From Deltaproteobacteria bacterium (GTDB lineage: Bacteria; Myxococcota; JACPTQ01): a stretch of 39,483 nt of DNA. The notes under the pieces are model-generated. The model saw nothing but the letters and a program-made list of their open reading frames with translations. It made no database searches and had not been told where the DNA came from. Both the position numbers and the translations under genes were made by a program. Numbering within the stretch: position 1 is the stretch's first letter; the number at the start of each line of letters is the position of its first letter. Below are positions 626 to 33,100 of this stretch, in pieces. The stretch covers positions 1 to 39,483 of the forward strand of contig JACPTQ010000023.1 in assembly GCA_016192705.1 (NCBI GenBank), read 5' to 3'.

Positions 626-1276
626 ATGCGTACAATCGTCGTTGCCCTCCTTCTTGTCGACACAAGTCTTGCGTTCGCCGCCAAGTCCAATCGATTCAAT
701 ATCGACCTCGCGCTCTCGCCGTTCATGCGCGAACAACAGATCGAGAACCCGAGTCGCGACGACCGCGTCGTGCGTGAAGTCGGCGTCGTCACGCGGACAA
801 CGTTTTCGTATGCATTCGTCCCGTGGCTCGAAGCGGGGCTTTACGTCGCGTTCGATGCGGGGAGCGGCGAGCGATCGAACTACAGCCGCCCGGCCGCCGA
901 CGGAACCGCGACCGTTGTGAGCCGCAGCGCCGGCGCGTACTGGGAGCTTTGGACGGGGCCATTCGTGCGCGGCGTCTGGGGCCCGGCGTTTTTCGAATTC
1001 GGCTGGTCGCCGCTCGTGCTTCGCGGAGACGATGGTCGCGCCGACTTGGCAAGCACCGCGGGCGACACGACCGGCACGTTTCGCGGAAACCCGTTCATCG
1101 CTTTCATGTTGGCCGGCGGCGCCCGCGTTTCGCTCGCGCCGAACCTCGAACTCAAACTCATCCTTCAGTTTCGGATCCGCTACCTCTCATCGCGCGGCGG
1201 CGACGCGCTCGAGTCGTCGCAGAATTTTGGGCAGATGCACCTCTGGCCGTACATGGGAATTGGATATCGCTTTTAG
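626..1276 (+). CDS. Exported outer-membrane-barrel-like protein
   Basis: The 216-aa product starts with a short Sec-type signal peptide (MRTIVVALLLVDTSLAFA, cleavage probably before AKS). The rest is rich in alternating hydrophobic and aromatic residues. It ends in Gly-Tyr-Arg-Phe, a C-terminal aromatic of the kind seen on outer-membrane beta barrels. Repeated short strands such as PFVRGVWGPAFFEFGWSPLV and the terminal MHLWPYMGIGYRF fit a small barrel of eight or so strands, but I cannot name a family. No clear Shine-Dalgarno precedes the ATG, which lies only 41 bp after transposable element copy 1. The stop overlaps that of the convergent lipoprotein gene by four bases, so the two messages must run into each other. 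Confidence 0.8.
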   Translation: MRTIVVALLLVDTSLAFAAKSNRFNIDLALSPFMREQQIENPSRDDRVVREVGVVTRTTFSYAFVPWLEAGLYVAFDAGSGERSNYSRPAADGTATVVSRSAGAYWELWTGPFVRGVWGPAFFEFGWSPLVLRGDDGRADLASTAGDTTGTFRGNPFIAFMLAGGARVSLAPNLELKLILQFRIRYLSSRGGDALESSQNFGQMHLWPYMGIGYRF

Positions 1277-2319
1277 TTGGCGACGCACGCGCCCGCACCA
1301 CCAATGGTCGAGCCCGCGTCGGCGCGAAACTGGCACGAGAAAAGGGCGGCGCCCGGGATTTGGCACGCGCTGCCGATGTTGCACTGGTCGGCAACCGCGC
1401 ACGCCCAGCAGCAAGCCTTCGCACACAAGCCTTCGTTGCAAACGTTTCCGGTGCCGCAATCGGCGTCGGCTGAACACGACTTCGTGCAGTAACCAACGCT
1501 CTGCGATGAAGGATAAACGCACGTCAGCGAGCTTTCGCACCCACCACCGGTCACGCAGCGGTCCATGACCTTGCCAAGACACGTCCCCGCGTCGGGGTGC
1601 GGTGGTCGCGGGGGCGGAGGCGTCAAGCGACCCACGCAACGCCCACCCGTCCACACACAGCGCGTGGAGTGGCCGTCGCATTTCAATTGCGTCGTCAGCG
1701 TGTCGCAAGCCTCACACGAAGGCGGTTCCGCCCAATCACACGGAATGCACGGCCCTGCGTCCAAGTCGCACGGGCACTCGGGAACGTCACAGAACAGTCC
1801 GTCGCGACAGTCGTTGTCGCTCCAACACGTGTCACAGCGGCCAATCTTCTTGAGCGACACGCGGGCCGCGCGCGCCTCGCAGTCGTTGCCGTACGTGCGC
1901 CCATCGCAGCCGCAAACCGGCGCGTAGATCTCCGCGCACGCGCTCGGGACGTTTTCGCATAGGCCGAGATCATCGCCGACGCCGCACCGGCCGATCGCGA
2001 AGTGGCAGAACTCGTTGCGCGACGAACACTGAAGGCCGACAAACCCGCCGCACTCGCGATTCGTTCCTGCGTCGCGCACAACTCCTGCGTCACGATGAAC
2101 GCCCGCATCGCGCGCCAACCCGCCATCACGAGCGACGCCCGCATCCCTTTGCAAACCCGCATCGCGCGTAGTTCCCCCGCCCGTCGACCCGTCGGGAACA
2201 ACCGGATGAAGCGGTCCGAGCGGCGCCTCGCCCCCTGGGTCATAAGGCGTCGATCCGCAGCCGATAACCAACGACGCCGCGATAAGACCCAAACATTGTT
2301 GCATCGCTTTAAGTCGCAT
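1273..2319 (-). CDS. Cys-rich lipoprotein with Kazal-type inhibitor domain
   Basis: The start at 2319 gives a 20-residue signal peptide ending in the lipobox Val-Ile-Gly-Cys; the frame can open 30 bases earlier but that would lengthen the signal awkwardly. A linker (residues about 51-88) has tandem RDAGVx hexapeptides, an 18-bp tandem repeat. Residues about 121-162 match a Kazal-type serine protease inhibitor: the core PVCGCDGRTYGNDC has the characteristic Cys-Gly-x-Asp-Gly-x-Thr-Tyr-x-Asn-x-Cys order. Several Cys-rich modules of the C-x-x-D-x-D-C type follow. The product is expected to be lipid-anchored, with the Kazal domain possibly blocking an extracellular protease. That role is inference. 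The gene is divergent from the glycosyltransferase gene at 2505. Confidence 0.9.
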   Translation of the reverse strand: MRLKAMQQCLGLIAASLVIGCGSTPYDPGGEAPLGPLHPVVPDGSTGGGTTRDAGLQRDAGVARDGGLARDAGVHRDAGVVRDAGTNRECGGFVGLQCSSRNEFCHFAIGRCGVGDDLGLCENVPSACAEIYAPVCGCDGRTYGNDCEARAARVSLKKIGRCDTCWSDNDCRDGLFCDVPECPCDLDAGPCIPCDWAEPPSCEACDTLTTQLKCDGHSTRCVWTGGRCVGRLTPPPPRPPHPDAGTCLGKVMDRCVTGGGCESSLTCVYPSSQSVGYCTKSCSADADCGTGNVCNEGLCAKACCWACAVADQCNIGSACQIPGAALFSCQFRADAGSTIGGAGACVAN

Positions 2320-2504
2320 CCCTGGTTCGCAATGCGAATCCAGTGCCACAGAGCCGCACGCGGATTACCGAGGAATCATCGAACTTCTGATCCGCCACCC
2401 CGGGTCTCGCGTCAGTCTTCGTCAACGCGATGTCGAAATTGTCGGCGCTGGGTTTCCGAAGCGCGCACGAGACGCTATGTTCAACGCATGGCGTTCGCCG
2501 CACG

Positions 2505-12563: not shown

Positions 12564-13364
12564 ATGAAGCGCATTCGGTTCACTCGCTTCGCAACCGGCC
12601 TTTCTGTTCTGGTTTCGGCCACCGCGTTATGGGTCTCGCGCGCAGAGGCGCAGTGCCGCGACTGTCCGAGCAATCGCGTCTGCATGAATAGCGTGTGTCG
12701 GTTTCTCTTCGCAGGCGAAACTCCGCCAACTTCGCCTTCGCTCACGCGCCGCCCGTCACGACCGACGCCGGTCGTACAACCGACCTTAACGCCGTTCCCG
12801 TCTACCCGCCCCGCACCCATCATCACGCGCCGCGTGCGCGATCCCGGCTGGGCGTACGAAGCCGGCGTGACCGGACTTATCTCGTCCGTGCTCATCCTCG
12901 GGCTCGGCATCGCCAGCGAGGCCACCAATGAGGGCGGCAAGCTCGTTCCATCGTTGCCGCTCGGCGGGTCCGCCCTCCTGATCGCCGCCGGTGCGGTCCC
13001 GCTCGTCGCCGCGGGGGCCACATCGGCTCGCGAGCGGTCGGGACTTCGCGAGAACGCCTTCCTTCGAATCATGGGCTGGGGCTTTTACGGAGCCTCAATG
13101 ACCGTGGGGTTCATCCTCACGCTCGTCGGTGTCAGCAGCCAAATCCCGACCGGTCTCATCACGACGACGACGGTCCTTGGGATCGGCTCGGTCGCGATCA
13201 TGACGGTCGATGCGTTTCAAGCGCGAAACGAAGCGCTTGCGCTCTCGCCCACCGGCATTCTCCGCGCGAACGAAAATGTGTCCCGTGGTTCGCTGACGCT
13301 GGCGCCAAAGCTCGACGCGGGGCGCTTGCGTGGCCTCGTGCTCGGCTGGGGCGGCTCGTTTTGA
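12564..13364 (+). CDS. Small exported/membrane protein with Cys cluster and four TM segments
   Basis: The 266-aa product has an N-terminal signal (ending SRAEA-Q) followed by a tight cysteine cluster CRDCPSNRVCMNSVC (residues 31-45), a Pro/Thr-rich linker to about residue 93 and four hydrophobic segments at about 98-118, 132-152, 169-191 and 194-214. The C-terminus LVLGWGGSF follows a short beta-like tail. This arrangement recurs in many predicted envelope proteins of the group, but I know of no assigned function. Its TGA overlaps the TTG start of the caspase-like gene (TTGA), which suggests co-translation and perhaps joint localisation with that protease. Confidence 0.85.
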   Translation: MKRIRFTRFATGLSVLVSATALWVSRAEAQCRDCPSNRVCMNSVCRFLFAGETPPTSPSLTRRPSRPTPVVQPTLTPFPSTRPAPIITRRVRDPGWAYEAGVTGLISSVLILGLGIASEATNEGGKLVPSLPLGGSALLIAAGAVPLVAAGATSARERSGLRENAFLRIMGWGFYGASMTVGFILTLVGVSSQIPTGLITTTTVLGIGSVAIMTVDAFQARNEALALSPTGILRANENVSRGSLTLAPKLDAGRLRGLVLGWGGSF

Positions 13365-14959
13365 GGCTGGCGGCCGCAACGCTTATCGCACTCGTGCTCG
13401 AACATACGCTCGCCTTCGCGAAAACAGCGTGGCCTGAATTCCGCGATTTCAAACGCGTGGGTGGCGGCGCGAAAGACGCCGCGCTCATCGTCGCGATCGA
13501 GAAATACTCGTTCGTCGCGAAGGTCCCCGGCGCTGGCGACAACGCGGACGATTGGAAAAAATACCTTACCAGCAGTCGCGGGGTGCCCAGCCACAACGTG
13601 TTTGAGCTCAGAGACGCGGAGGTCCAACCCAAGACCGTCGTCGAGAAACTCTCGGAGACCGCGCGTCGCGTCGAGGCGGGTGGAACGCTCTGGTTCGTCT
13701 TTATTGGGCACGGCGCTCTGGCCAAGGGCGGCAAGGATGGGCTCCTCGTCGGGGTTGATGCGCGGCCCGCCGTCGACAGCCTCTTTGCGCAAAGCGTACG
13801 CCGATCTGATGTCCTCAAGATCGCCGCGTCGAGCCGCGCCACTCAATCGATGATCGTCCTCGACACTTGTTTCAGCGGGCGGTCCACGAAAGGCGATCCA
13901 CTCATCCCAGGTTCTCAGCCGCTTGTGGCGGAAGAAATCCCCGCAGTCCCCGACAAGCGCACTGTTCTCTTCACCGCCGCACGGAGCGACGAATTCGCAG
14001 GTCCCCTTCCGGGCGGCAATCGGCCGGCCTTCAGCTACCTGGTCCTCGGCGGATTGCGCGGCTGGGCCGATGCGGACGGCAACGGCACCGTCACCGTTAA
14101 GGAGCTCGGCGATTTTTCCCGACGCGTCTTAACTAAGTTTGTCACCAACCGAATGCAGACCCCAACCGTCGAAGGGCCACCCGATCTCGCGATTGGACAG
14201 GGCTGGGAGACGCAGCCGAACATCGACGCTATTGTCCGCGCCCCCGACGAACCGACTGGAAAGCCAGCCGCACCTCCGATCAAGTGTCCCCCGATGATGC
14301 TCCCGATTGCGGGCGGAGTGTGGAAGTGGCCAGGAAATCCGACGGGAATCACGATCGCGCCGTTCTGCCTCAATCAGTTCGAGGTTACGGTTGGTCAATA
14401 CGCGCATTGCAGCCGCCTCACCAAAAAGCCCTGCGCGCCCCCCGCGCTCAAGGTGAATTGGCCCGGAATCCGCCCGGACGAACGCGCGCGATGGAGCCGG
14501 TATTGTAACGATCCGCGCAACAAGGATCTCGAACTTCACCCGATGAACTGCGTGACGTGGGCCGAGGCGAACGAGTATTGCCACGCATACAATTTGCGCC
14601 TCCCCTCGGAATACGAGTGGGTCTGGGCAGCGCGAGGCGGCGAGGCGGCGCAAAAGTACCCATGGGGCAACGAGGAGCCCGCGATGCAGACATGCTGGTC
14701 CCATGACCCTGACAAGCCGCGCAGTGGAACATGCCCGACCGGTTCGCGACCGCTGGGGAAGAGCGTCGACGGCGTTCATGACCTCGTGGGAAATGTCTGG
14801 GAGTGGACCTCCAGCCTGGTGAGCCGGGATAAGTTGGAGCGAATCATCCAAGGCGGGGGCTGGTTCGACTCGCTCTTGCCCACGGTCGCTCGGTCCGCCG
14901 GCGTCGACCCCCGAACGCGTGATTTCGCCGTCGGCTTTCGATGCGCGCTCACACCGTAG
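13361..14959 (+). CDS. Secreted caspase-like protease fused to EF-hand and FGE-like domain
   Basis: The product is 532 aa from a TTG start that overlaps the preceding TGA; the leader (about residues 1-20, ending LAFA) is a Sec signal. Residues about 40-260 are a C14 caspase/metacaspase-like domain: the opening VAIEKYSFVAKVPGAGDNAD, catalytic His117 in FIGHGAL and catalytic Cys170 in IVLDTCFSGR. An EF-hand loop DADGNGTVTVKE (237-248) has acidic or Asn residues at positions 1, 3, 5 and 12, so calcium control is plausible. Residues about 312-532 are a formylglycine-generating-enzyme/sulfatase-modifying-factor-type domain (NQFEVTVGQY, MNCVTWAEANEYC, LRLPSEYEWVWAARGG, YPWGNEEP, VGNVWEWTSS, VGFRC). 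Whether that domain is catalytic or only a C-type-lectin-like binding fold is unknown. It is the last gene of the operon. Confidence 0.92.
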   Translation: MRLAAATLIALVLEHTLAFAKTAWPEFRDFKRVGGGAKDAALIVAIEKYSFVAKVPGAGDNADDWKKYLTSSRGVPSHNVFELRDAEVQPKTVVEKLSETARRVEAGGTLWFVFIGHGALAKGGKDGLLVGVDARPAVDSLFAQSVRRSDVLKIAASSRATQSMIVLDTCFSGRSTKGDPLIPGSQPLVAEEIPAVPDKRTVLFTAARSDEFAGPLPGGNRPAFSYLVLGGLRGWADADGNGTVTVKELGDFSRRVLTKFVTNRMQTPTVEGPPDLAIGQGWETQPNIDAIVRAPDEPTGKPAAPPIKCPPMMLPIAGGVWKWPGNPTGITIAPFCLNQFEVTVGQYAHCSRLTKKPCAPPALKVNWPGIRPDERARWSRYCNDPRNKDLELHPMNCVTWAEANEYCHAYNLRLPSEYEWVWAARGGEAAQKYPWGNEEPAMQTCWSHDPDKPRSGTCPTGSRPLGKSVDGVHDLVGNVWEWTSSLVSRDKLERIIQGGGWFDSLLPTVARSAGVDPRTRDFAVGFRCALTP

Positions 14960-14984: not shown

Positions 14985-17099
14985 TCACTCCTTCGCGCGG
15001 ATGGTGTATGAAACGCGGGTGTCGCGCCAATCGTCAGAATCGATTGCGGCGAGTCGCTTCAAGATCGATGACAAAAAGAGTGACCGTGCACCCGCGTGGC
15101 TCTGAAACGTTGTCGCCGGTCCGGCGTCGTCGTACAGCGCGATTTTTTTTCGGAGTGCGATGACCTTGAGCGACTCAACGACGTGCGAGCGTCCTCGAGG
15201 CAAGCGAGCCGCAAGCCGAACGCGTCGCCGAAGCGCATCTGGGGGAAAAATATACGTTTCGCCCGCGCGCACGAACGGCACTTCTACAAATCTGTTGGGT
15301 ATGACGACGGTCACGGTGCCATCGGCGTCAACGCTGAAGACGTATAGATAGGCGTCGCGTGTCGTCGTGATCTTCGCTTCGACCGCGTCGCCCTCGCGAA
15401 GGTCGCGCCTCGAAAGTTTCGCCGTCACACGAAAACCCGCGTCAGCACGGGGCCCGCGAAGCGCAGCGCGCGCCCGAAGCCTCACATGCACGCTCGATCG
15501 CTCGTTCCCACGCGCCGGGAGAAACTCAGCCGCGAGAATCTCCTCATCCACAATCATCGCGTCCGCCATAAGCGCGTCGAAGTCTTCGACGACACGCCGA
15601 TTTTCGGGACCTGATTCGCCCGCCGCGTTTGACACAACGTAACGACCGCCCGCACCGCCGCCAATCGATTTCTCGACAACCCGCACGCGCGCCGCATCCA
15701 ACGCCCGCGCACGAATTGTGGCCTCCGGCTCCTCCGGCGCCCCCCGTTCGGTGTGCTCGACCTCGACCCAGCCGACCGCCGCTCTCGCGAGGAGCGCCTT
15801 CCACTTCGCCTCTTCTGATTTCTCCGCGCCCGCGATTTCGCGTTCGCGCGCCCCATCTTCCGCAAGAGCCTTCGCAAGTGCCAACGGAATCGGAACGCCC
15901 CGTTTCTCGGCATCCGCACGCAACGCGCGCACAAGGCCCTGAAGTCGAAACCGAATCTCTTCGATCTCATACAGCTCTAAGAGATCCCGAAAGTTCGATT
16001 TGAGATCCAGAAGTGCGAGCGCCTGTTTCACGGACGCCGCCGCACCGCGCGCCCCGTCGTTTGAAGACGCAGCCCGTAACGCTTCGATGCCCAACTGAAA
16101 AAAAAGGCGCCACGCGTCTTCGAGGTGTTTTTCGCGCGTCGAAAGTCCGCTTTTCGAAATCTCGTCGCGCAACGTCTTCTCAAACGAGTCGGCGAGATCC
16201 GCGTTCTTTTGCGCGAGCGCCGTTTCGACGTCGCGTTTGGCTTTCGCAACGCTCTCCTTCATCACCGGAGCGCGCCGAAATCGCGTCACGTTGATAACGA
16301 CGTACGGCGACGCATGGTAATCACGCCCCGTCGTGCGATCGATGAGTCGATTCCCTTCGAGCTTCAATCGTGCGCGCAAGACGTCGGGCGACGGCACCGC
16401 CTTCGCGTCGCGCGAATCGGGCGACGGCGCCACCAACACGATGTGCCGCGCAGCGGTGAAAAGCGTCTCCGGCTTATCGGCAATGACCGTATCGGCTGGG
16501 AAAAACTGGAAGACGTATCGCCACACGGGGCGACTCGCCGTGGCCCCTTCGAAGACCGATGAGAAGACGTTTCGCGCGGCGTCGAGCGCTGGGTCGGCCG
16601 TCGGCGAAAACCGTCGCGTCGCTTGTCCGGCCGCAAGGAGCAGCGCCCGCACAGGACTCGCCTCATCGCGTGGAATCGCCTGAAGGAAAATCTGAATTTC
16701 CACCACACGGCCCGGATAGAGCGTCGGCTCGATAAAGAGCGCATGGTCCGCGTACAGCCCAGTCCCGGCGCCCCGCATCTGCATAAGCCCAGCGACCGCT
16801 TTGAGAGTTTTTCCGTCCGGCAAAAGCCCGCGCACTTCGAAACCAAGCGCCGCGTCGTTTCCGCGAACCGCCTCCGGCAACTCTGGAAACGACACGCGCT
16901 CGACGTCGACCGAAACGTAGTCAAGATTGCGCCTCACCTTGCCGCGCACCACCTCGCCCGGATCGACGTGCGCGAGCCCAACCTCGCCGCCCATCGATCG
17001 CAACGACAAGTCGCCCGTCCACCCACCGCCCAATCTGGTCGTCGTTGTGCACGCTGCGAGCGCCGCAAAAGCACACGGGAAAACCGATGAGAACCGCAT
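14985..17099 (-). CDS. Large lipoprotein with C-terminal DUF4384-type domain
   Basis: The ATG at 17099 gives 704 aa with a lipoprotein signal MRFSSVFPCAFAALAAC (lipobox Leu-Ala-Ala-Cys); an in-frame TTG at 17108 is an alternative. The central 400 residues are charged and mostly helical. Near the C-terminus the segment YLYVFSVDADGTVTVVIPNR followed by RAGETYIFP is the hallmark of DUF4384, a beta domain often found attached to or next to bacterial caspase-family proteases. Here the caspase-like gene is the convergent neighbour, 25 bp away. I infer that the two proteins work together in the envelope. The gene is second in an operon with the small lipoprotein at 17148-17711. Confidence 0.88.
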   Translation of the reverse strand: MRFSSVFPCAFAALAACTTTTRLGGGWTGDLSLRSMGGEVGLAHVDPGEVVRGKVRRNLDYVSVDVERVSFPELPEAVRGNDAALGFEVRGLLPDGKTLKAVAGLMQMRGAGTGLYADHALFIEPTLYPGRVVEIQIFLQAIPRDEASPVRALLLAAGQATRRFSPTADPALDAARNVFSSVFEGATASRPVWRYVFQFFPADTVIADKPETLFTAARHIVLVAPSPDSRDAKAVPSPDVLRARLKLEGNRLIDRTTGRDYHASPYVVINVTRFRRAPVMKESVAKAKRDVETALAQKNADLADSFEKTLRDEISKSGLSTREKHLEDAWRLFFQLGIEALRAASSNDGARGAAASVKQALALLDLKSNFRDLLELYEIEEIRFRLQGLVRALRADAEKRGVPIPLALAKALAEDGAREREIAGAEKSEEAKWKALLARAAVGWVEVEHTERGAPEEPEATIRARALDAARVRVVEKSIGGGAGGRYVVSNAAGESGPENRRVVEDFDALMADAMIVDEEILAAEFLPARGNERSSVHVRLRARAALRGPRADAGFRVTAKLSRRDLREGDAVEAKITTTRDAYLYVFSVDADGTVTVVIPNRFVEVPFVRAGETYIFPPDALRRRVRLAARLPRGRSHVVESLKVIALRKKIALYDDAGPATTFQSHAGARSLFLSSILKRLAAIDSDDWRDTRVSYTIRAKE

Positions 17100-17147
17100 T
17101 CCCCCCAAGTCTATCGGTTCTCGCGCACCACTTCCAAGATTGGCGAT

Positions 17148-21765: not shown

Positions 21766-22446
21766 ATGAAAGCGCGCTGTTGCAAACGCCGTGGAGGATT
21801 CACGCTCCTTGAGCTGCTCATCGTCATTGTCATTATCGGGCTCATCATGCTTCTTGGGTTTCCCGTCGTCTCGCGTACGCTCCGCGGGTTTCGCGCACAA
21901 GAAGGCTTGAAAGCGGTCTTGAACGGCTTTCACTCGGCCCGCGCGCGCGCCGCCATCATGAACAAGGCGCTTCGCATCGATCTCACGAGCTCAAACACCA
22001 TCGGCGCCATCGACCCGCTCGCGGGGGGTGGCCAGCTCCAGGTTTTCAAGTACAGCGGGACCGACTGCAGCGGGACAACCTCGCCGCTCGTCCCAGACCC
22101 GGGGAGCCCGGCGAACCCGCTCACCGGCGACGGCAAGCGCTGGGACAACTTTCAGTTTCGCGAGCTGAAAGACATCGGCTTGTGTCGAACGACGACCGAT
22201 GCGGCTGAGATGTCGCTCGGGTGCGTCGCCGCAACGACGGTGCAGTTTTGCGTGAAGCCAAACGGCGAAACGACGAACCTCACGCAGTCGTCGGCGAATG
22301 ACGCGACGGTGGTTTACGTCCAAGAGTACCTGCAAAGCGGCGCGTCGTCGGTGACCGCCATCGGAAACCCGATGCAGGTCGTGGTGCCGCGGTATCGGCC
22401 GGCGCGTTACAACAATGTGGCGGTGACAACCAATGCGTGCTTGTAG
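21766..22446 (+). CDS. fimT: GspH/FimT-family minor pseudopilin
   Basis: The 226-aa product has a class III (prepilin) signal: a basic leader MKARCCKRRGG with cleavage expected between Gly11 and Phe12, then FTLLELLIVIVIIGLIMLLG with Glu at position +5. The C-terminal globular part of about 185 residues contains Cys pairs and fits the GspH/FimT fold. AGAGGGG precedes the ATG. It is the first gene of an operon with pilV, pilW, pilX and pilY1-like genes. These minor pilins prime type IV pilus assembly and form the tip complex that carries PilY1 (family knowledge). FimT homologues can also bind DNA during uptake in some species; that is not shown here. Confidence 0.92.
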   Translation: MKARCCKRRGGFTLLELLIVIVIIGLIMLLGFPVVSRTLRGFRAQEGLKAVLNGFHSARARAAIMNKALRIDLTSSNTIGAIDPLAGGGQLQVFKYSGTDCSGTTSPLVPDPGSPANPLTGDGKRWDNFQFRELKDIGLCRTTTDAAEMSLGCVAATTVQFCVKPNGETTNLTQSSANDATVVYVQEYLQSGASSVTAIGNPMQVVVPRYRPARYNNVAVTTNACL

Positions 22447-22708
22447 CGGTCGGCCAAACAACAGGTCCCAGCGACGCCGGGTGACTGCTGCGTGGCTCCG
22501 CGTTCGCACGGGACAACACTTCCCCCTGCCTTGGCAACGCGATGAAGCAGCTCCTGTTTGGGATACACAAAGGTCGCCGCGTGGGAGACGCGCAGCGGCG
22601 ACTCTGAGGGCGTGGCGACCACCACAAATTTCTTGGCCTAGCCTGCATAACGCCCGAAGAGCGAGCGCACCGCAAGTGCGCGAGCGCGGAGCCGCGAAGT
22701 GCTCCCAC
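22447..22708 (+). other. 262-bp intervening segment between fimT and pilV
   Basis: All other junctions in this operon overlap or are under 60 bp, but here 262 bp separate fimT from the pilV class III signal. The segment contains an imperfect inverted repeat, GGCTCCGCGTTCGCAC at 22494-22509 against GTGCGCGAGCGCGGAGCC at 22676-22693. The pilV frame stays open through it (ATG at 22433), but the encoded 92 residues look like translated non-coding DNA and would precede a prepilin signal. I interpret it as an inserted repeat. Confidence 0.5.
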
Positions 22709-23377
22709 GTGGCGACTGACTTGTGCGACCCAAACTATGTAACGGGCTTTACGCTTGTCGAGGTGATGATCTCGATGCTCATTTTGTCGGTCGGGGTGCT
22801 CGCGATCATGGCGATGCAGTTTTCGACGCTCGCGGCCAACACGGCATCGCGCGAAACGACCGAAGCGACGAGTCTCGCGCGCCGCATGCTCGAGATGCTG
22901 AAACGCGACACGTACGACTGGAACGTGAAGTCCGACCTGTCAAGCGCGACCGAAGTGCCGCTTCTCCAACCGGCCAACGCGGCCCTCTCGCCGGGTCCGG
23001 GTACGACAACGTGGCTTAACATCCCCGTGAGCGTTCTTCCCGGGATCGAATCGGGCGGCACCAACTATATGGTCGACCGCGAAATGCGCCCGAACGCAAC
23101 ACCGTCCGGCCTGCCGGCGACGGTCACCGGGTACGGCCCCCCGCGCTACTGCATCCACTACCGATTGACGTGGCTAACCGACAACGAGCTCCTTCTCGCC
23201 GAGGCACGCGTGACCTGGAACCGAAAAGACCGGTCCGAGACGCGAGCCCTTTGCACACCCAATATCAATTCGTGTTGCAACTCGCCGAACGACGCCGTCT
23301 ACTCGAACCTCCAACGCATCAACTCGCTCATCGTCTCGACAACGATCTCGCGCAAACAAAAGCCGGGGCAACCCTAA
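22709..23377 (+). CDS. pilV: PilV-like minor pilin
   Basis: The class III signal is clear: cleavage before Phe in TG-FTLVEVMISMLILSVGVLAIMAMQ with Glu at +5, and the GVLAIMAMQ stretch is typical of PilV. The start is uncertain. GTG at 22709 would give the leader MATDLCDPNYVTG and TTG at 22721 a nine-residue leader; neither has a good ribosome-binding site or the usual basic residues. An ATG at 22433 would add 92 implausible residues. The globular domain of about 190 residues has several Cys, including CNS and SCC near the end. The stop overlaps the pilW start as TAATG. The likely role is a subunit of the priming/tip minor pilin complex. Confidence 0.85.
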   Translation: MATDLCDPNYVTGFTLVEVMISMLILSVGVLAIMAMQFSTLAANTASRETTEATSLARRMLEMLKRDTYDWNVKSDLSSATEVPLLQPANAALSPGPGTTTWLNIPVSVLPGIESGGTNYMVDREMRPNATPSGLPATVTGYGPPRYCIHYRLTWLTDNELLLAEARVTWNRKDRSETRALCTPNINSCCNSPNDAVYSNLQRINSLIVSTTISRKQKPGQP

Positions 23378-24573
23378 TGCGACGGCGCGGCTTCACCATG
23401 ACCGAACTCTTAATAACGCTCCTCGTCGCGTCGTTCGTTGCGATCGCGCTTTACTTCCTCTTCACGTCAAACAGCCGCGTCTTCTTCCTCCAGGAACGCA
23501 TCGCGCAAAGCCAGGCATCGACGCGCTTCGTGCTCGAAACAATTTCCGCCGACCTTCGCCGCGCCGGCTACCTCGCAACGCCGAACTCCACGTCCGACAA
23601 AAACCTCTGCGCGGGAAGCCCCGTCGGTGGCGCGTCAAGCCCCATCCGCGGCATCTCCATCGCCGACGGCGTCGACCAATCGGTCGTCAACATGAACACC
23701 GTCAACACCAACATCAAGCCCGACCGCGTCACAATCGCCGCGAACTTCCGCAGCTCCGAAAAGTATCGCGCGAAGGTCAACGGCACGACCGTCACGCTTT
23801 GTGGCACCGACGACACGCATCCACTCTGCGTGGGGTCGCCAACGACGTCGACGGCGTTCAACAACCTCTTCGCGCCAAACATGTTTTTGCGCGTCGAAGA
23901 CACGATTGGCAAATACCAGTTCGCCGTGATCACCGTCGTCGCCTGGAATGCCGGCACGAAGGCAAGTCCGCCCACGATCACAATTTCCGCGGCGCCGTCG
24001 ACGAGTTGCGGATTTCACGGCGGCGACATGGCCGAAGACGCGTTCGTCAACCCCGTTGAGTACATCCGCTATCGGATCGAAACGCCCACAAACCTCGGCT
24101 GCGCGACCGACCCCAAAAACCGCATTCTCATCCGCGAGCGCCTCGATTCGGCCGGCAACCCATATTCGCCGTCAAACTACTGGATGATCGCCGACAACAT
24201 GGTCGACCTACAGGTGTGGGCCGACCTCGATACCGGTGCGGGCGGCGGCGACTCAGTCATTCCCGCGAACCCGAACCCGTATAATCACCGGGGCAACGAA
24301 GACAACAACCCGATCGCCGGCGCCGACGAAACAGCCAAGGTCAATTTGAACCCGCACCTCGCGCGCACGGTTCATGTCGCCATCGCGATTCGCGCGCCGT
24401 CGGAAGTTCCCAATTACGCGTTCACCGCGCGCCCCGTGAACAACCTGAACGCAATCGGCGAATACTACGGTCCCATAACGTCGATGGCGCTGTCGGACGC
24501 GGGCGCCGCGCCTGTGCAAACCCTCACGCTTGAAGCGGTCTTGGAGAACTTTTTTTATGGTTGGTACTATTAA
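23377..24573 (+). CDS. pilW: PilW-like minor pilin
   Basis: The ATG at 23377 overlaps the pilV TAA. The 398-aa product has a very short class III leader MRRRG followed by FTMTELLITLLVASFVAIAL, with Glu at +5. Length and position match PilW. The first helix is followed by SQASTRFVLETISADLRRAGYL, a conserved phrase of PilW-type proteins, and a large C-terminal beta-rich domain. The frame opens upstream at 23170 inside pilV, but those codons are a shadow. The end overlaps pilX by 17 bases. The role is a minor pilin in the type IV pilus priming complex, from family membership and gene order. Confidence 0.92.
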   Translation: MRRRGFTMTELLITLLVASFVAIALYFLFTSNSRVFFLQERIAQSQASTRFVLETISADLRRAGYLATPNSTSDKNLCAGSPVGGASSPIRGISIADGVDQSVVNMNTVNTNIKPDRVTIAANFRSSEKYRAKVNGTTVTLCGTDDTHPLCVGSPTTSTAFNNLFAPNMFLRVEDTIGKYQFAVITVVAWNAGTKASPPTITISAAPSTSCGFHGGDMAEDAFVNPVEYIRYRIETPTNLGCATDPKNRILIRERLDSAGNPYSPSNYWMIADNMVDLQVWADLDTGAGGGDSVIPANPNPYNHRGNEDNNPIAGADETAKVNLNPHLARTVHVAIAIRAPSEVPNYAFTARPVNNLNAIGEYYGPITSMALSDAGAAPVQTLTLEAVLENFFYGWYY

Positions 24574-25165
24574 CGGCCGTTATCAGCGCACGGGCGGTTA
24601 CACGCTGGTTTTGTCGATGGTGATCCTCGTCACGCTCACGGCGATCGGCATCTTCGCGCTCCGCACGACGCGCACCGACCAGCTCATCTCGCAAAGCCAA
24701 CGCATCGCCGCGCTCGCGCACTACATCGCCGAGGCCGGGCTCATTTACGTGCAACGCCACGCCTCACAAGGCGACGCGAACCTCATCATTCGCCAAATCA
24801 ACGCGTCCGACGGCGGCATGACGCTCACCTATCCCTCGACAAACATCCCGTCGGGTGTGTTCGGTGAAGATGCGGGCGCCGGTTACGCACCGCTTGGCTA
24901 CGGTTCGGATTTGCGGCCGGCGTTTCAGGTCGTTGTTTCGAAGCCGCGCTCCATTCCGATTGTCGCGGGGCAGAGCATCGGGGTGGGCAGTTCCGGCTCA
25001 AAAAAATGTTACTGGGTTTTCGACTACCTCTCGACCGGCGTCGCGCTGCCGTCACGCGTTCTCGACGCTGGCGTTAACTGGAGCGATCCAGGCGCAACCG
25101 CGAGCGACCGATTTGGCGTCGCTCAGATTCGTGCCGAAATCGTCCAAATGGGGAATTGTTTCTAA
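24557..25165 (+). CDS. pilX: PilX-like minor pilin
   Basis: The ATG at 24557 is preceded by TTGGAGA, begins inside the end of pilW and gives 202 aa. The leader MVGTINGRYQRTGG is followed by YTLVLSMVILVTLTAIGIFAL and then the phrase RTTRTDQLISQSQRIAALAHYIAEAGL, typical of the PilX N-terminal domain. The residue at +5 of the mature helix is Leu, not Glu. Absence of Glu5 is what is expected of a subunit placed at the very tip of the pseudopilus, by analogy with GspK. The C-terminal part is short and contains one Cys pair. Confidence 0.9.
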   Translation: MVGTINGRYQRTGGYTLVLSMVILVTLTAIGIFALRTTRTDQLISQSQRIAALAHYIAEAGLIYVQRHASQGDANLIIRQINASDGGMTLTYPSTNIPSGVFGEDAGAGYAPLGYGSDLRPAFQVVVSKPRSIPIVAGQSIGVGSSGSKKCYWVFDYLSTGVALPSRVLDAGVNWSDPGATASDRFGVAQIRAEIVQMGNCF

Positions 25166-25184
25166 TGGACGGGAAAAGACTCAA

Positions 25185-25208
25185 CGCAAAGACGCAAAGA
25201 CGCAGAGA
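25185..25208 (+). repeat. Three 8-bp tandem repeats before pilY1
   Basis: CGCAAAGA at 25185 and 25193 is followed by CGCAGAGA at 25201. They fill the 56-bp gap between pilX and pilY1 and run straight into the GAGGAAG ribosome-binding site. Similar CGCAAAGA strings occur dispersed in many unrelated genomes, from general recollection, so this may be a mobile microsatellite and not a regulator site. Confidence 0.6.
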
Positions 25209-25221
25209 GAGGAAGAATATA

Positions 25222-28200
25222 ATGCGTACTTTTTCTGTGCCCATTATTCAATTTGCTCTTGCTGTGATTCTTCTCTCTTCGCCGCGCGCCCGCGCACAAT
25301 CGCTCGACGATGACGTCTCGACTTCGCTCATGCCGATCGTCGTGGTCGTCGTCGACAATTCTGGTTCGTCAAACTTTCGCACAACCGCCGCGCGCTACGG
25401 CGGCTCCGATTGCGCACTCGCGAACAGCACCGACAAGACGCGCCTCATCACGATCCAAGAGATCCTCTCGGGCACGTGGAGCGGCTACAACCTCAAGTTC
25501 TGCGACGACGCCGGCGTCGACGCCACGAATTGGAACACGCACCCCCAGCGCAACATCAACGATTCGAACAACACAAAGGACTGCCGGCCGGGGTGTTACA
25601 TGGGCGCGGGGACATCGCAAGGCACGGGCCTCATCGACACGTTTTCGACCAGCGTCAAATTCGTGCTCGCCACGTTCGACCAGGAACAAGACGCGGGCGG
25701 CGGCGACGCCGGCGGCTACAGCTACAACTCGAGCGACTCGTTCCTCTGGTACGACACGGACACCCTCACCAACAAAACCGGCAACGTTGGCATCCGCGAG
25801 GCCGCCGCGTGCACCGTTGAGGGCGACTGCGGCTCCGAGTGCACCGACTGCTGCGTCGCGGGGCTCGGCTACTGCGCCGATTGGCGCGGCCGCATGATTC
25901 CACCGGGCGACGCGGGCGCGAACACGGCGAACGCAAACGCCGCGATCAAATCGACCATCATGAAGCTTCGCCCCTACGGCGGCAGCCCCATCGCCGCCGT
26001 CTTCAAAGACCTCGAAAACTGGTTCGCGAACGATCCGATGGTCAAAACCGGCGGCGTCGATCCGTACGCGCAGTGCCGTCGCAAATACGTCATCCTCTTC
26101 TCGGACGTTGCTGCGAACATGAGCTGCGGGTACACGTCGGGCACGACCGGCCAAGCCGCGCGCTGCCAAAACTATACGCCGCTCCCGTGCAGCCCGCTCG
26201 GCCCGGCTTCGTGCTACGACGCAGGGTTTGAAAACGTTCGATGCGACGTCGACGCCGTCGCCGATTGCAACGGCACCACGACGTGTCATTACTGCCCCGT
26301 GGGCACATCATGCGATCGCGTCTCCGGGCATTGCAGAGACTCGAACTTTGACCTCTGGGATGCGGGCGCCTGGCTCGGCGTGCAGACATGGAAGAAGCCG
26401 CTCTCGCCGAACGACTATCGCGACCCGACGAAAATTCCCGTGTTCGTGGTCGGCTTCAACCTCGACGACACGACGAGCTGCTCAAGCGACAGCGATTGCA
26501 ACAGCGGCACCACCGTCGGAAATTCGTGCAACACCGCAACCGGAAAGTGCCGCCAATCAACGCTCATGGAGCAACTCGCCGTGCAACTCAACACCGATTG
26601 CGACACCGACGCCGGTGGCATCAACACGTGCCGCGCGACCGACCCCGATATCGTCGCGAAGCTCTCAGCGCTCCTCAACACCGTCTCCGCGGGCCGCACG
26701 TCGCGCACGCGCTCGGCCTCGACCACGCGCACGCTCATCCCACGGTTCGACGGCAACGACGCCTGCCCCGACCCCGGGAAAACGCTCTTCAAACTCTTCG
26801 CGTCGTACCAAGTCCCCGAAGCGGCCATTCACTGGAAAGGCTACCTCGAGCGCATCACGCAGAGCTACGATCCCAGCGACCCGCTCAAGACGCCAACCGT
26901 GAACGCGAGCGTCTGCCCCTCATCGTGCGCGGGCGGCAACGCTGGCCAAACGAATTTCCACGATCTCTTGAACCAGGCGTCATTCGTCAACGACGCCGGC
27001 ACGCTCGTCTCGTACACGCGCCGCATCTACACATTCATGTCGAACGGCGAAGTCGTGCCGGCTGACGACAACAACCTCGGTAATGTGGACCTCGATGTCG
27101 CCAGCACCCAAGTTCGCAACCAGGTTCTTTCGTGCGTCTGGGGACAACAGTTTGGCTCGGGCGGAAACCTCGGAGATTGCCGCGAGCGGATCCCGAGCGA
27201 GGGCGGGCACAAGCTGCACGGCATCTGGCACTCGAGCCCCGCTGTTGTCGGCGCGCCGAGCGCGAACATTGCAAGCGCGTCGTACCAAACCTTCAAGAAC
27301 GCCGCGGGCGTCAAAGACCGGCCGACCATGATTTATTTCGGCTCAATGGGCGGCATGATCCACGCCGTCAATGCGCACACGATGAAGGAGGAGTGGGCCT
27401 TCATTCCGCGGTCGTTACAGAGGAAACTGCAGCTACAAACGTCGACGCCGTGGGCCGGATTCGATGGAAACATCGTCGTGCGCGATGTGCAGCTCTCGAA
27501 GATCGCGACCGACAACTCCGAGTGCCCCGAAGACCTGACGACAACAAGCGAACTCTTTGGGTACGCGACGAGCATGAACCTATGTCGGTGGCGTACCGTC
27601 CTCGTGGCGTGCTTTCGTCGTGGTTACGAGGGGGTCTCGGTCGACACCAGGGGGCACGGCTGCGTCGCACTCGACGTGACGAAACCGACCGACACAACGT
27701 GGGCGTATGGTGGCGCGCCGTTCGCGTTCTTGTGGGAGTTTAACGATCTCTCACCGACAGACAGTTCGCTGCATAACCGAATCGGCTACACGACCGGCGA
27801 ACCGCTCATCGGCTCAGTGTTCGTCGACACGGGTGTTTGGCCGGCCGACGCGCCGCTCGATGGCGAGGGCTCAAAAAAATATACGTCGTCGGATCAGAGA
27901 CATCGTGAGGTCGCAATCGCGGTGATTCCAGGTGGAAAACCGGATGGCACGGCTGTGAATGGCGGCGCCGACAACGGCAAAGACTACTGGGTGCTTGAAA
28001 TCATGAAGCGGAAAAGCAACACGACGAATTATCCGACCATCATCAAGCGCATCGAGCTTTTGGGGGCCGACGCGGGCCTCGCGGTCGGAGGCTGCACCGC
28101 GCTCTTCGATACGACGGGCACGCTCTTGCGCACGGCCTACTGCGGAACGTCCGCGGGGCGAATCGCCGAGCTGAATATCGGCGGCTCCGACCCGACCCCC

Positions 28201-29043
28201 AAAACCAACCCCAAGGCCACCGAACCGGATGGGGGCTGGACCGTCAACGCGTTCTTCTACGACGTGTTTGCCGATTCGGGGGTGAGCGCCCAACCGATCT
28301 ACGACGCGCCCGCCATCGCTTACGATTCGGCAGGTCTCCTCACCTTTGTCGTCGGCAGCGGAAACCCCGACGACCTCGAAGACTCCAACCGGCACCGAAT
28401 CGCCATCTTCAAGCGGCTCTCCGACGGCGGCACCATGACGGTAATGGCATCCACAATGGACGCGGGCGACAAGGTGATAGGCTCGCCGGTCATCTACAAT
28501 GACGTCGCCTATCTCACCGTTTTTTCCGCGAACACCACGCAGGCGTGCGTCTTTGGAGGCTCAACGCTGGTCGGTTTCCAGTTTGACTCGATTAACATTT
28601 GCAACGCGCCAAAACCGCGCCTCGAAGACCCCACGACGACGGCTTGTCAGAGTGACTCCGCCTGTTCGGGCCTCGGGTACGGCTACACGTGCGACTTTTA
28701 CGCAGGGACAAGCTGCGGCGACATTTCGCGCGCCGGTTTTTGCCGCCGCCTGTACAAATGGCTCGGCGACGGCACATTCGCGATGGGCGTTGATTTGCAG
28801 CCCGCACCCGCAACATGCACCGCGACCGTCGACCCGATGACGCAGCAACTGACGGGCGTGTCGGGATACGTGCCGGGCTCGATGAACATTGTCGTCCAAA
28901 CCGGCGCCGTTCCATCGACCTCCTACACGGCGCCACCGTCCGGCCAAGGCGGCCCGACCGCGAAAGTCACGACGTTCGCCGTGCCAAACAGCACCTCGTA
29001 TCTTTCAAGCCGAGTCTCGTCGTGGGGAACCGTCGTGAGGTAG
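25222..29043 (+). CDS. pilY1: PilY1-like pilus tip protein
   Basis: The start at 25222 follows GAGGAAG and gives 1273 aa with a Sec signal ending ARAQ. Residues about 36-50 (MPIVVVVVDNSGSS) open a von Willebrand-A-like domain with the MIDAS-type Asp-x-Ser-x-Ser motif at D45. A long Cys-rich region follows, with repeats of the kind CSSDSDCNSG...C. The C-terminal 600 residues correspond to the PilC/PilY1 beta propeller, with signs such as KDRPTMIYFGSMGGMIHAVN, GYTTGEPLIGSVFVDTG and APAIAYDSAGLLTFVVGSGN. PilY1 proteins sit at the pilus tip and act in adhesion, retraction control and surface sensing (family knowledge). It is the last gene of the minor pilin operon. Confidence 0.95.
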   Translation: MRTFSVPIIQFALAVILLSSPRARAQSLDDDVSTSLMPIVVVVVDNSGSSNFRTTAARYGGSDCALANSTDKTRLITIQEILSGTWSGYNLKFCDDAGVDATNWNTHPQRNINDSNNTKDCRPGCYMGAGTSQGTGLIDTFSTSVKFVLATFDQEQDAGGGDAGGYSYNSSDSFLWYDTDTLTNKTGNVGIREAAACTVEGDCGSECTDCCVAGLGYCADWRGRMIPPGDAGANTANANAAIKSTIMKLRPYGGSPIAAVFKDLENWFANDPMVKTGGVDPYAQCRRKYVILFSDVAANMSCGYTSGTTGQAARCQNYTPLPCSPLGPASCYDAGFENVRCDVDAVADCNGTTTCHYCPVGTSCDRVSGHCRDSNFDLWDAGAWLGVQTWKKPLSPNDYRDPTKIPVFVVGFNLDDTTSCSSDSDCNSGTTVGNSCNTATGKCRQSTLMEQLAVQLNTDCDTDAGGINTCRATDPDIVAKLSALLNTVSAGRTSRTRSASTTRTLIPRFDGNDACPDPGKTLFKLFASYQVPEAAIHWKGYLERITQSYDPSDPLKTPTVNASVCPSSCAGGNAGQTNFHDLLNQASFVNDAGTLVSYTRRIYTFMSNGEVVPADDNNLGNVDLDVASTQVRNQVLSCVWGQQFGSGGNLGDCRERIPSEGGHKLHGIWHSSPAVVGAPSANIASASYQTFKNAAGVKDRPTMIYFGSMGGMIHAVNAHTMKEEWAFIPRSLQRKLQLQTSTPWAGFDGNIVVRDVQLSKIATDNSECPEDLTTTSELFGYATSMNLCRWRTVLVACFRRGYEGVSVDTRGHGCVALDVTKPTDTTWAYGGAPFAFLWEFNDLSPTDSSLHNRIGYTTGEPLIGSVFVDTGVWPADAPLDGEGSKKYTSSDQRHREVAIAVIPGGKPDGTAVNGGADNGKDYWVLEIMKRKSNTTNYPTIIKRIELLGADAGLAVGGCTALFDTTGTLLRTAYCGTSAGRIAELNIGGSDPTPKTNPKATEPDGGWTVNAFFYDVFADSGVSAQPIYDAPAIAYDSAGLLTFVVGSGNPDDLEDSNRHRIAIFKRLSDGGTMTVMASTMDAGDKVIGSPVIYNDVAYLTVFSANTTQACVFGGSTLVGFQFDSINICNAPKPRLEDPTTTACQSDSACSGLGYGYTCDFYAGTSCGDISRAGFCRRLYKWLGDGTFAMGVDLQPAPATCTATVDPMTQQLTGVSGYVPGSMNIVVQTGAVPSTSYTAPPSGQGGPTAKVTTFAVPNSTSYLSSRVSSWGTVVR

Positions 29044-30141: not shown

Positions 30142-33100
30142 ATGAGGCACTCCGCTTTCTTGTTTGGCGCTCTCCTCGTGGCAGCAAACGCAGGTGACGT
30201 GAGGGCGCATGCGTCGCCCCCCCCTCCCCCCGCACCCGCTCCCGCGTCCGCTTCCGCAACCGCTTGCGTAGCCTTTGGCCCTGAGCGCTTCGAGCGCCAG
30301 CGCCGCCACGAGCGCTGGGAGTCGCGTGTCTTCGCCCGAAAGAATCCGAACGGCGTCTTCACGCTGGTCGCGGAGACGACGAACATTCATGCGGCACGCC
30401 TCACGCTGAATGGCGTCGCGCTCCTCGCGCCGCGCGATTTCGAAGGGCGAGGTGATCGGCCGTGTCCTAAGCACCGTCACCACTGCCGCTGCAAGAAGCC
30501 GCGGCCATGCACGCGGGGCGACTTGAATCCACAGCGCGGACATCACAACCCCGAGCGGTTCCTCTTTCGGTGCGCGGTCGCGCTCGCCGGTACGAACACC
30601 CTTCGGGTGAAGCTCAAAGGAAAGCCGGGCTCCAGTCTCACGACGATCATCGAGGACGCGGATCGCACGCCGCCTTCCATCAGCATCACATCGCCACAGA
30701 ATGGCGCGACCGTTTCCGCAACGCCGATTCGAGTTCTGGGCACCGTCGACGACGCATCTGCGACCGTTTCCGTAACCGCTGCCGCTCCCGTTCCCGCAAA
30801 CGCAACCGTCTCCGCTTCCGTTTTCTTCGCGAGCGTTCCTCTCGCCGAGGGCTCAAACACGGTGACCGCGATCGCGCGTGATACCTGCGGCAACGAGGGG
30901 AGAGCCGTCGTGACGGTCACGCTCTGCACACCACGAACTTGCGCCGACGCCGGCGCGACGTGCGGAACCATCTTCGACGGGTGCGGCGGCACGCAGAACT
31001 GCGGCGCGTGCACAGTGCCCGAGACGTGTGGCGGTGACGGCGTCGCGAACCGCTGTGGCTGCAGTCCCGACAACGTCGCGGCGTGCTCGGGCAAGGACTG
31101 TGGCGACGTCACCAACAACTGCGCGCAAACCGTTTCATGCGGGACCTGCTCGGCTCCAAAGACCTGTGGTGGCGCAGGCTCACCAAACGTTTGTGGGCTC
31201 CCTGGACCGCCGCTCCCACCCGACCCCGCGACCGTCGCACCGCCCGTCGCTCCCGCGGTCACAACGACCGTCGCCGCCTCAACCGAATTCCTTTACACAG
31301 GCGCAACGGCCATCCAAACCGGCGTCGATGCCGGCACGATTGAGCCCATCCGCGCCGCCGTCATTCGCGGTCGCGTTGTCGCCCGCGATGGCACAACCTC
31401 GGTGCCCGGCGCCACCGTCACCATCGTCGGCCACCCCGAGTTGGGCCAGACGCTCACGCGTGCCGACGGCGCGTTTGATCTCGCCGTGAACGGAAACGCA
31501 TCGCTCATCGTTCGCGTTGAGAAGCCGGGCTTCCTCTCCGCCGATCACCCCGCTGCGCCCGTCGCGCAAGACTTCACGGTCCTCGCCGACATCGTCCTCG
31601 TCGCACTCGACTCCGCCGCGACCCCCGTCGACCTCGCCGCGCCCACCATGCAAGTCGCCCGCGCGAGCGCTGTCACCGACGAAAGCGGCACCCGCCGCGC
31701 GACCGTCCTCATCCCCGCCGCGACGACCGCGACGATCGTCCACCCGGACGGCACGACCACAACCCCCGCGCAACTCACCATCCGCGCAACCGAAATCACC
31801 GTTGGCCCGTCCGGTCCCGCCGCCATGCCGGCGCCTCTCCCCGCCACGACCGGCTACACTTACGCCATCGAATTCACCGCCGACGAAGCGCTCGCAGCCG
31901 GCGCAACCACCGTTCGCTTCTCGCAGCCGCTCATCCACTATGTTGACAACTTTCTCAACTTCCCCGTCGGTATCGCCGTCCCAACCGGCTACTACGACCG
32001 CGCGCTCGGCGTCTGGATCGCCTCCGATAACGGCCGCATCATCCGCGTCCTCTCGATCGCAGCCGGCCTCGCCAACCTCGACATCAACGGCACTGGCACC
32101 GCCGCAACCCCAACCGCCCTCGCCACCCTCGGCGTCACCGACGACGAACGCGCAAAGCTCGCGACGCTTTACGCCCCCGGCCAGTCGGTATGGCGCGTCC
32201 CAATTCCTCACTTCACGACCTGGGATTGCAATTGGACCTCCGGCCCACCGCTCGATGCTACCCCACCACGCGAAGAGGCTCCGGGAACGACGCTCGCGTC
32301 CGACGTCGACATGTGTGCGGGCGGCAGCACTGCGGTTGGCGGCGCGGGTGGCACCGCCTCTTCAAGCTCAACGTCCGTCATCAACCAGACCCAGGCCGTA
32401 AACCACACGACAACCGTCGCGGGCGCCGGCACCTCCATGACTTACCAAAGCGATCGCGCCCCAGGCCGCGCCTCGAGCCGCGCCATCACGATTCCCGTCA
32501 GCGAGTCGTCCTCGCCCCCCGCGTCACTCGCGCGCATTGACGTCGAGGTCTCCGTCGCCGGCCGCTCGTACAAGTCGTCGCTTCCACCAACCTCCGGTCA
32601 GCGCCACACGGTCGTCTGGGACGGCCTCGACGTCTACGGCCGCGTCGTACAAGGTGCCCAAACCGCGACCGTGACCATCAACTATGCTTATCCAGCGAGC
32701 TACGCAGATCCGGGCGACTTGCGCCGCGCCTTTGGTTTTCGGGGCAACGGGTTCGAGTTCGCCCCAGCGCGCAACGAATTCGTCTTCTCGCAATCGTACC
32801 GCGTCCCACTCGGGGGTTCGATCGACCCGCGCGACACGGGGCTCGGTGGATTCACGTTTGCCATGCACCACTCCTACAACCCCATTTCACGCGTCGTCTA
32901 TCTCGGAAACGGCCGCGAACAGCGCGCCTCACAAAGGCTGCCGGGGACCATCGAAACCATCGCCGGGAACGGCTCACCGGGCGAATTACTCTATGCGCCG
33001 CTCACGACAAGCGCATTCTCAGCAGTCGGCGCCCCATCGGGTCTTGTCTACGATTCCGTCGGCAACCTCCACATCTCCGACACGGTCGCGCGACTCACTC

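Follow-up and report, generated by a model that had tools for sequence, protein, structure and literature searches.

A predicted exported caspase-like protease with an FGE-like C-terminal domain encoded in a myxococcotal genome

Introduction

Fusions of caspase domains to FGE-like domains, as well as caspases with signal-like N-terminal helices, are already known. In the 2012 survey of Asplund-Samuelsson, 33 of the 671 prokaryotic metacaspases were fused to FGE, and 46 caspases lay behind a single N-terminal helix, possibly a signal peptide, for which extracellular action was suggested (PMC3501461). One caspase–FGE orthocaspase, MaOC4 of Microcystis, has been named (PMC5756287). The other described systems closest to the gene reported here are the EACC1-associated caspases (NF047832; system 4 of PMC7159879), in which a caspase with many alternative C-terminal domains is encoded together with a 5' membrane protein gene. 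Bacterial caspases are mostly discussed as cytoplasmic effectors of death or defence.

Here we describe a caspase–FGE-like gene in a contig of a deltaproteobacterial genome assigned to the Myxococcota (GCA_016192705.1, contig JACPTQ010000023.1; the 39,483 nucleotides analysed are referred to as the window). Like the metacaspases and orthocaspases with an FGE-sulfatase tail, its product joins a p20-type caspase domain to an FGE-like domain within a single chain and has an intact His/Cys dyad; unlike them, it is predicted to be exported, contains an EF-hand-like loop and belongs to a subfamily that Pfam C14 missed here. That exported subfamily, found in Myxococcota and Elusimicrobiota, may be the less known part of this landscape, and within the limits of the library searched we found no paper on it.

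Results

The gene and its architecture

The open reading frame at 13361–14959 is real and coding, because relatives from other genomes match nearly its entire length; the full-length relatives L001, L002, L003 and L029 align over ~505 residues at 36–38% identity. (Note that the source genome is the sole representative of its family, order and class in the collection.) The TTG at which it begins is the only in-frame ATG, GTG or TTG upstream, back to a stop at 12929, and overlaps the TGA of the upstream gene, an arrangement that raises the possibility of translational coupling. Taken together, the translation, the alignment of relatives and the predicted fold support the view that the product is an exported caspase-like cysteine protease whose dyad is intact and which carries an FGE-like fold in the same chain (Table 1).

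The linker between the caspase and FGE parts spans 52–309 residues in FGE-tailed relatives. The short form present in the window protein is common to only four relatives, the others having 86–309 residues, and these long spacers are mostly helical-looking and lie outside Pfam. A conserved helical-looking spacer of 200–280 residues (KYDAAVKFEKG...WRELG...DKDWSKLRRLL), with no Pfam family, is found in L008, L013 and L022.

Table 1 Features of the caspase–FGE-like gene and its upstream neighbour
Feature	Position	Strand	Details and basis
Upstream gene, 266 aa	12564..13364	+	Leader, Cys-rich N-terminus, several hydrophobic helices
Whole gene, predicted exported caspase–FGE-like protein	13361..14959	+	532 aa plus stop; TTG start
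Predicted signal peptide, residues 1-20, MRLAAATLIALVLEHTLAFA	13361..13420	+	Predicted cleavage before Lys21; sequence rule, relatives
Caspase-fold domain, residues 36-290	13466..14230	+	Alignment, NF047832, AlphaFold, Foldseek
Catalytic His117	13709..13711	+	Conserved 76/76; after strand 109-115
Asp168, predicted acidic S1 residue	13862..13864	+	Caspase-3 Gln161 position; conserved 76/76; pocket logic from PMC5756287, specificity predicted
Catalytic Cys170	13868..13870	+	Conserved 73/76
Arg200, candidate p20/p10 autoprocessing site	13958..13960	+	Just before a beta strand
EF-hand-like loop, residues 237-248, DADGNGTVTVKE	14069..14104	+	Between two helices; putative calcium binding
Linker, ~residues 291-327	14231..14341	+	AlphaFold model, linker comparison
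FGE/SUMF1-like (C-type-lectin-type) domain, residues 328-529	14342..14947	+	Lacks FGE catalytic cysteines; PF03781, pFGE best match
Cys407, predicted disulfide partner of Cys528	14579..14581	+	Covariation
Cys528, predicted disulfide partner of Cys407	14942..14944	+	Covariation

An intact caspase dyad and a predicted basic specificity

A preliminary description, made from the letters alone, had proposed His117 (in FIGHGAL) and Cys170 (in LDTCFSGR) as a plausible C14 dyad, and both the family alignment and the predicted structure bear this out. Across 76 aligned caspase domains, His117 and Asp168 are present in every row and Cys170 is missing in three. In the AlphaFold model the caspase domain is confidently predicted (pLDDT 75–98 in blocks of ten residues, above 90 across most of the domain; pTM 0.60 for the whole protein), and His117 and Cys170 follow strands 109–115 and 162–168, respectively, which are the canonical dyad positions, behind strands 3 and 4 of the clan CD caspase fold. 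Foldseek matched this domain to MALT1, to yeast and plant metacaspases and to Geobacter GSU0716. Pfam Peptidase_C14 (PF00656) did not match the window protein, nor anything else in the whole source genome, and it did match 17 of the 65 relatives scanned; because the caspase fold and the dyad are both found, we take the miss to be a matter of model sensitivity. The best curated match of the caspase part is NF047832 (E 1.4e-19), at 70.4 bits against a curated cut-off of 140 bits.

Bacteria commonly encode caspase homologues without a dyad (PMC5756287), and the cysteine is lost in three of the 76 rows, as it would be if such proteins were receptors in which the caspase domain served as a scaffold and not as a working protease. 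However, the window protein and nearly all of its relatives retain the dyad, the pocket and the residues around them, which makes a scaffold extremely improbable and argues for a working protease. Three exported caspase relatives (L059, L064 and L065) are without the catalytic cysteine.

The window protein shares with the metacaspases and the paracaspase MALT1 not only the fold but also an Asp two residues before the catalytic Cys. This residue, Asp168, occupies the position of caspase-3 Gln161, which belongs to an Asp-specific pocket (PMC5756287), and its presence there makes a metacaspase-like specificity, with cleavage after Arg or Lys, likely. Lys or Arg is found at position 174 in 58 of the 76 rows and at position 200 in 52, marking both as candidate self-cleavage sites. 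Unlike metacaspases and MALT1, the window protein is predicted to be exported.

Evidence for export

The preliminary description had also placed the protein outside the cytoplasm on account of a signal peptide. Using a home-made rule (charge, hydrophobicity and an A-X-A-like site; not SignalP), we found a leader in 69 of 75 relatives but in only 20 of 375 control segments (5%); by the same rule, 27 of the 29 FGE-tailed members of the subfamily have one, so that leaders are the norm among these caspase–FGE fusions. Most leaders in relatives are followed immediately by a conserved W-P motif. The distribution of cysteines agrees with export: 75 of the 76 caspase domains have no cysteine other than that at position 170, and in the window protein the caspase domain contains the catalytic cysteine only, whereas the tail contains ten. 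A caspase part free of cysteine except at 170, combined with covarying and conserved cysteine pairs in the tail, is what would be expected of a disulfide-bonded protein outside the cytoplasm. Export of the window protein is thus strongly supported by these sequence patterns.

It could nevertheless be argued that the protein is a cytoplasmic conflict (defence) effector akin to those of the EACC1-caspase or VMAP systems, with the leader acting as a membrane anchor and the caspase remaining inside. In favour of this, the closest curated model is that of the EACC1-associated caspase, the gene immediately 5' encodes a membrane protein and overlaps the caspase gene, like the EACC1 pair, and both share the layout of an unchanging caspase with diverse tails. 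Yet the caspase part scores below the cut-off (70 versus 140 bits) and the locus has no EACC1 gene; unlike in that system, it is the caspase itself that is predicted to be exported. The upstream 266-aa protein matched no Pfam or NCBIfam family, EACC1 models included, and its several hydrophobic helices distinguish it from EACC1, a single-helix membrane protein. Nor does it travel with caspases elsewhere: a search for the upstream gene as a conserved partner found nine relatives of it without a caspase within ~1.4 kb. Leaders that run straight into the W-P motif, together with the cysteine pattern, agree with export of the mature protein, and we regard a cytoplasmic effector as highly improbable. 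PADLOC, for its part, gave only a weak generic caspase match, and we rejected an assignment to an anti-phage system.

A canonical EF-hand-like loop

The loop DADGNGTVTVKE, which had been described as a near-perfect EF-hand loop, obeys the 12-residue EF loop rule at every position and is modelled by AlphaFold between helices 223–235 and 246–260 (pLDDT ~97). Among the 76 rows, 28 have a strict loop at the same place, 6 a loose one and 42 something else, often a shorter turn. Two points weaken the earlier suggestion that the protease is calcium-activated, even though the loop itself is canonical: only a minority of relatives have it, and extracytoplasmic calcium is usually high. With a loop in only 28–34 of the 76 rows, calcium is more likely to be a structural staple than a family-wide switch. 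A protease that is off until the loop is filled, and that senses calcium in the envelope or upon export, would be compatible with the canonical loop in a confident helix-loop-helix, with the 28 strict rows and with the calcium dependence of most metacaspases (PMC5756287). But the loop is missing in 42 rows, several with a shortened turn, and metacaspase calcium sites have been reported in apparently different elements, such as the 280-loop (PMC5756287). We consider a physiological calcium switch unlikely.

An FGE fold lacking the FGE catalytic cysteines

Consistent with the complete FGE/SUMF-type domain noted previously, PF03781 covers residues 328–529 (E 3.4e-35). AlphaFold models this part only moderately well (pLDDT 37–91 in blocks of ten), and its best match, both in sequence and, by Foldseek, in structure, is human pFGE. 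The tail shares the fold of human pFGE (SUMF2, PDB 1y4j) and FGE (SUMF1, PDB 1y1e) and keeps the GFRC cysteine and its partner; in contrast to them, it is fused to a protease and has eight further cysteines in a pattern of its own. Cys407 and Cys528 covary among aligned relatives (both in 12, neither in 7, mixed in 0), and 350/358 and 382/397 are further conserved cysteine pairs.

At the position of the human FGE catalytic motif (GGSYMCHRSYC, confirmed from the PDB sequences) the window protein has GGGWFDSLLPTVARS, with no Cys before Cys528. There is no Cys between Cys458 and Cys528, hence neither catalytic cysteine (human C336/C341) is present, and the pair is likewise absent in every aligned FGE row that reaches that far. 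The pair is also missing from pFGE itself. The idea that the C-terminal fold binds or modifies a partner therefore divides: comparison of the catalytic positions leaves modification unsupported, while the absence of the pair, together with pFGE as the best match, makes binding probable, and the tail is best read as a putative binding module of the C-type-lectin kind. Weak matches of EgtB, SenA and PvdO models to the common fold might suggest that the tail has remained an enzyme, of the SUMF1/EgtB/PvdO type, and modifies a partner, which would make the protein a bifunctional protease and modifying enzyme. The EgtB and SenA scores, however, are far below cut-off and cover the FGE-fold part only, such that the N-terminal domain that supplies the iron ligands in those enzymes is absent. 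With neither FGE catalytic cysteine here and the pair absent in the aligned FGE rows, a modifying tail appears very unlikely.

A conserved caspase part with exchanged tails

Close relatives occur in Myxococcota, Elusimicrobiota and a few other groups. An FGE tail is present in 29 of the 65 relatives scanned; others have Sel1, PEGA, PDZ, cyclophilin or TPR domains. Mapped onto the caspase tree, the long-FGE label requires no fewer than 17 changes on branches with good support, a figure that may be somewhat inflated, since some relatives lie at contig ends and a few of the 'no FGE' labels may be truncations. Separate FGE genes lie near FGE-less caspases at 6 of 46 loci, not clearly above the expectation from the abundance of FGE genes in the phylum. 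Single loci in UBA1203 and 2_bin.9 (L029, L048 and L027) contain several exported caspase genes with FGE lipoprotein genes adjoining.

Mobile or diversifying origins were also considered and set aside. A hypervariable DGR target in the FGE tail was rejected, there being no reverse transcriptase (RVT_1) match in the 97%-complete genome; a single phage record gave a partial match to the tail at 28% coverage; and plasmid records matched less than 80% of the query and, among the matches listed, mainly the tail.

Genomic surroundings

A gene for a predicted lipoprotein of 707 aa with a DUF4384 domain (14985–17108, minus strand) faces the caspase gene convergently, and the two end 26 bases apart. 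DUF4384 is often fused to caspases; DUF4384-like open reading frames lie near few of the caspase relatives, and the lipoprotein was set aside as a candidate partner. The window also encodes a protein with a Kazal-type protease inhibitor domain (1273–2349, minus strand). Farther along, on the plus strand, three genes with type IV pilin-type N-terminal methylation motifs and a weak PilX-like one (21766–25165) are followed by a 1295-aa open reading frame (25156–29043), the whole resembling a minor pilin cluster, and soon after it comes a YD-repeat/RHS core protein of 2298 aa (30142–37038, plus strand).

Discussion

Judged by its sequence and predicted fold, the gene product is an exported caspase-fold cysteine protease, and we think it probable that it works as follows. 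After removal of the signal peptide, the His117/Cys170 dyad would act outside the cytoplasm, where the acidic pocket residue Asp168 would set a metacaspase-like specificity for cleavage after Arg or Lys. Self-cleavage at Lys/Arg 174 or 200, between the domain halves, may accompany activation. Close to the end of the domain, the EF-hand-like loop could hold a calcium ion and so stiffen the fold in the calcium-rich exterior. The disulfide-bonded FGE-like tail, predicted to be devoid of FGE chemistry, would tether the protease to a target, whether protein or glycan, located in the envelope or beyond the cell. Since the caspase part is retained among relatives and the tail is swapped, it is probably the tail that determines the protease's site of action or its substrate.

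A broader reading, which we put forward only tentatively, is that these proteins might represent a widespread and undescribed class of exported caspases in Myxococcota, Elusimicrobiota and their neighbours, in which a constant core adapted to a disulfide-forming compartment is joined to tails that are exchanged freely (FGE/lectin-like, Sel1, PEGA, PDZ and cyclophilin). Such a class could amount to a periplasmic or extracellular system of constant protease and variable targeting domain, a counterpart to the EACC1 and VMAP conflict systems of the cytoplasm.

A caspase subfamily that is exported as a rule, free of cysteine save at the active site and repeatedly refitted with binding tails would indicate extracytoplasmic proteolysis by caspases, for which the processing of envelope proteins, attack on neighbours and predation are candidate roles. 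The Myxococcota, with their predatory and gliding members, are where an extracytoplasmic role for caspases would be testable.
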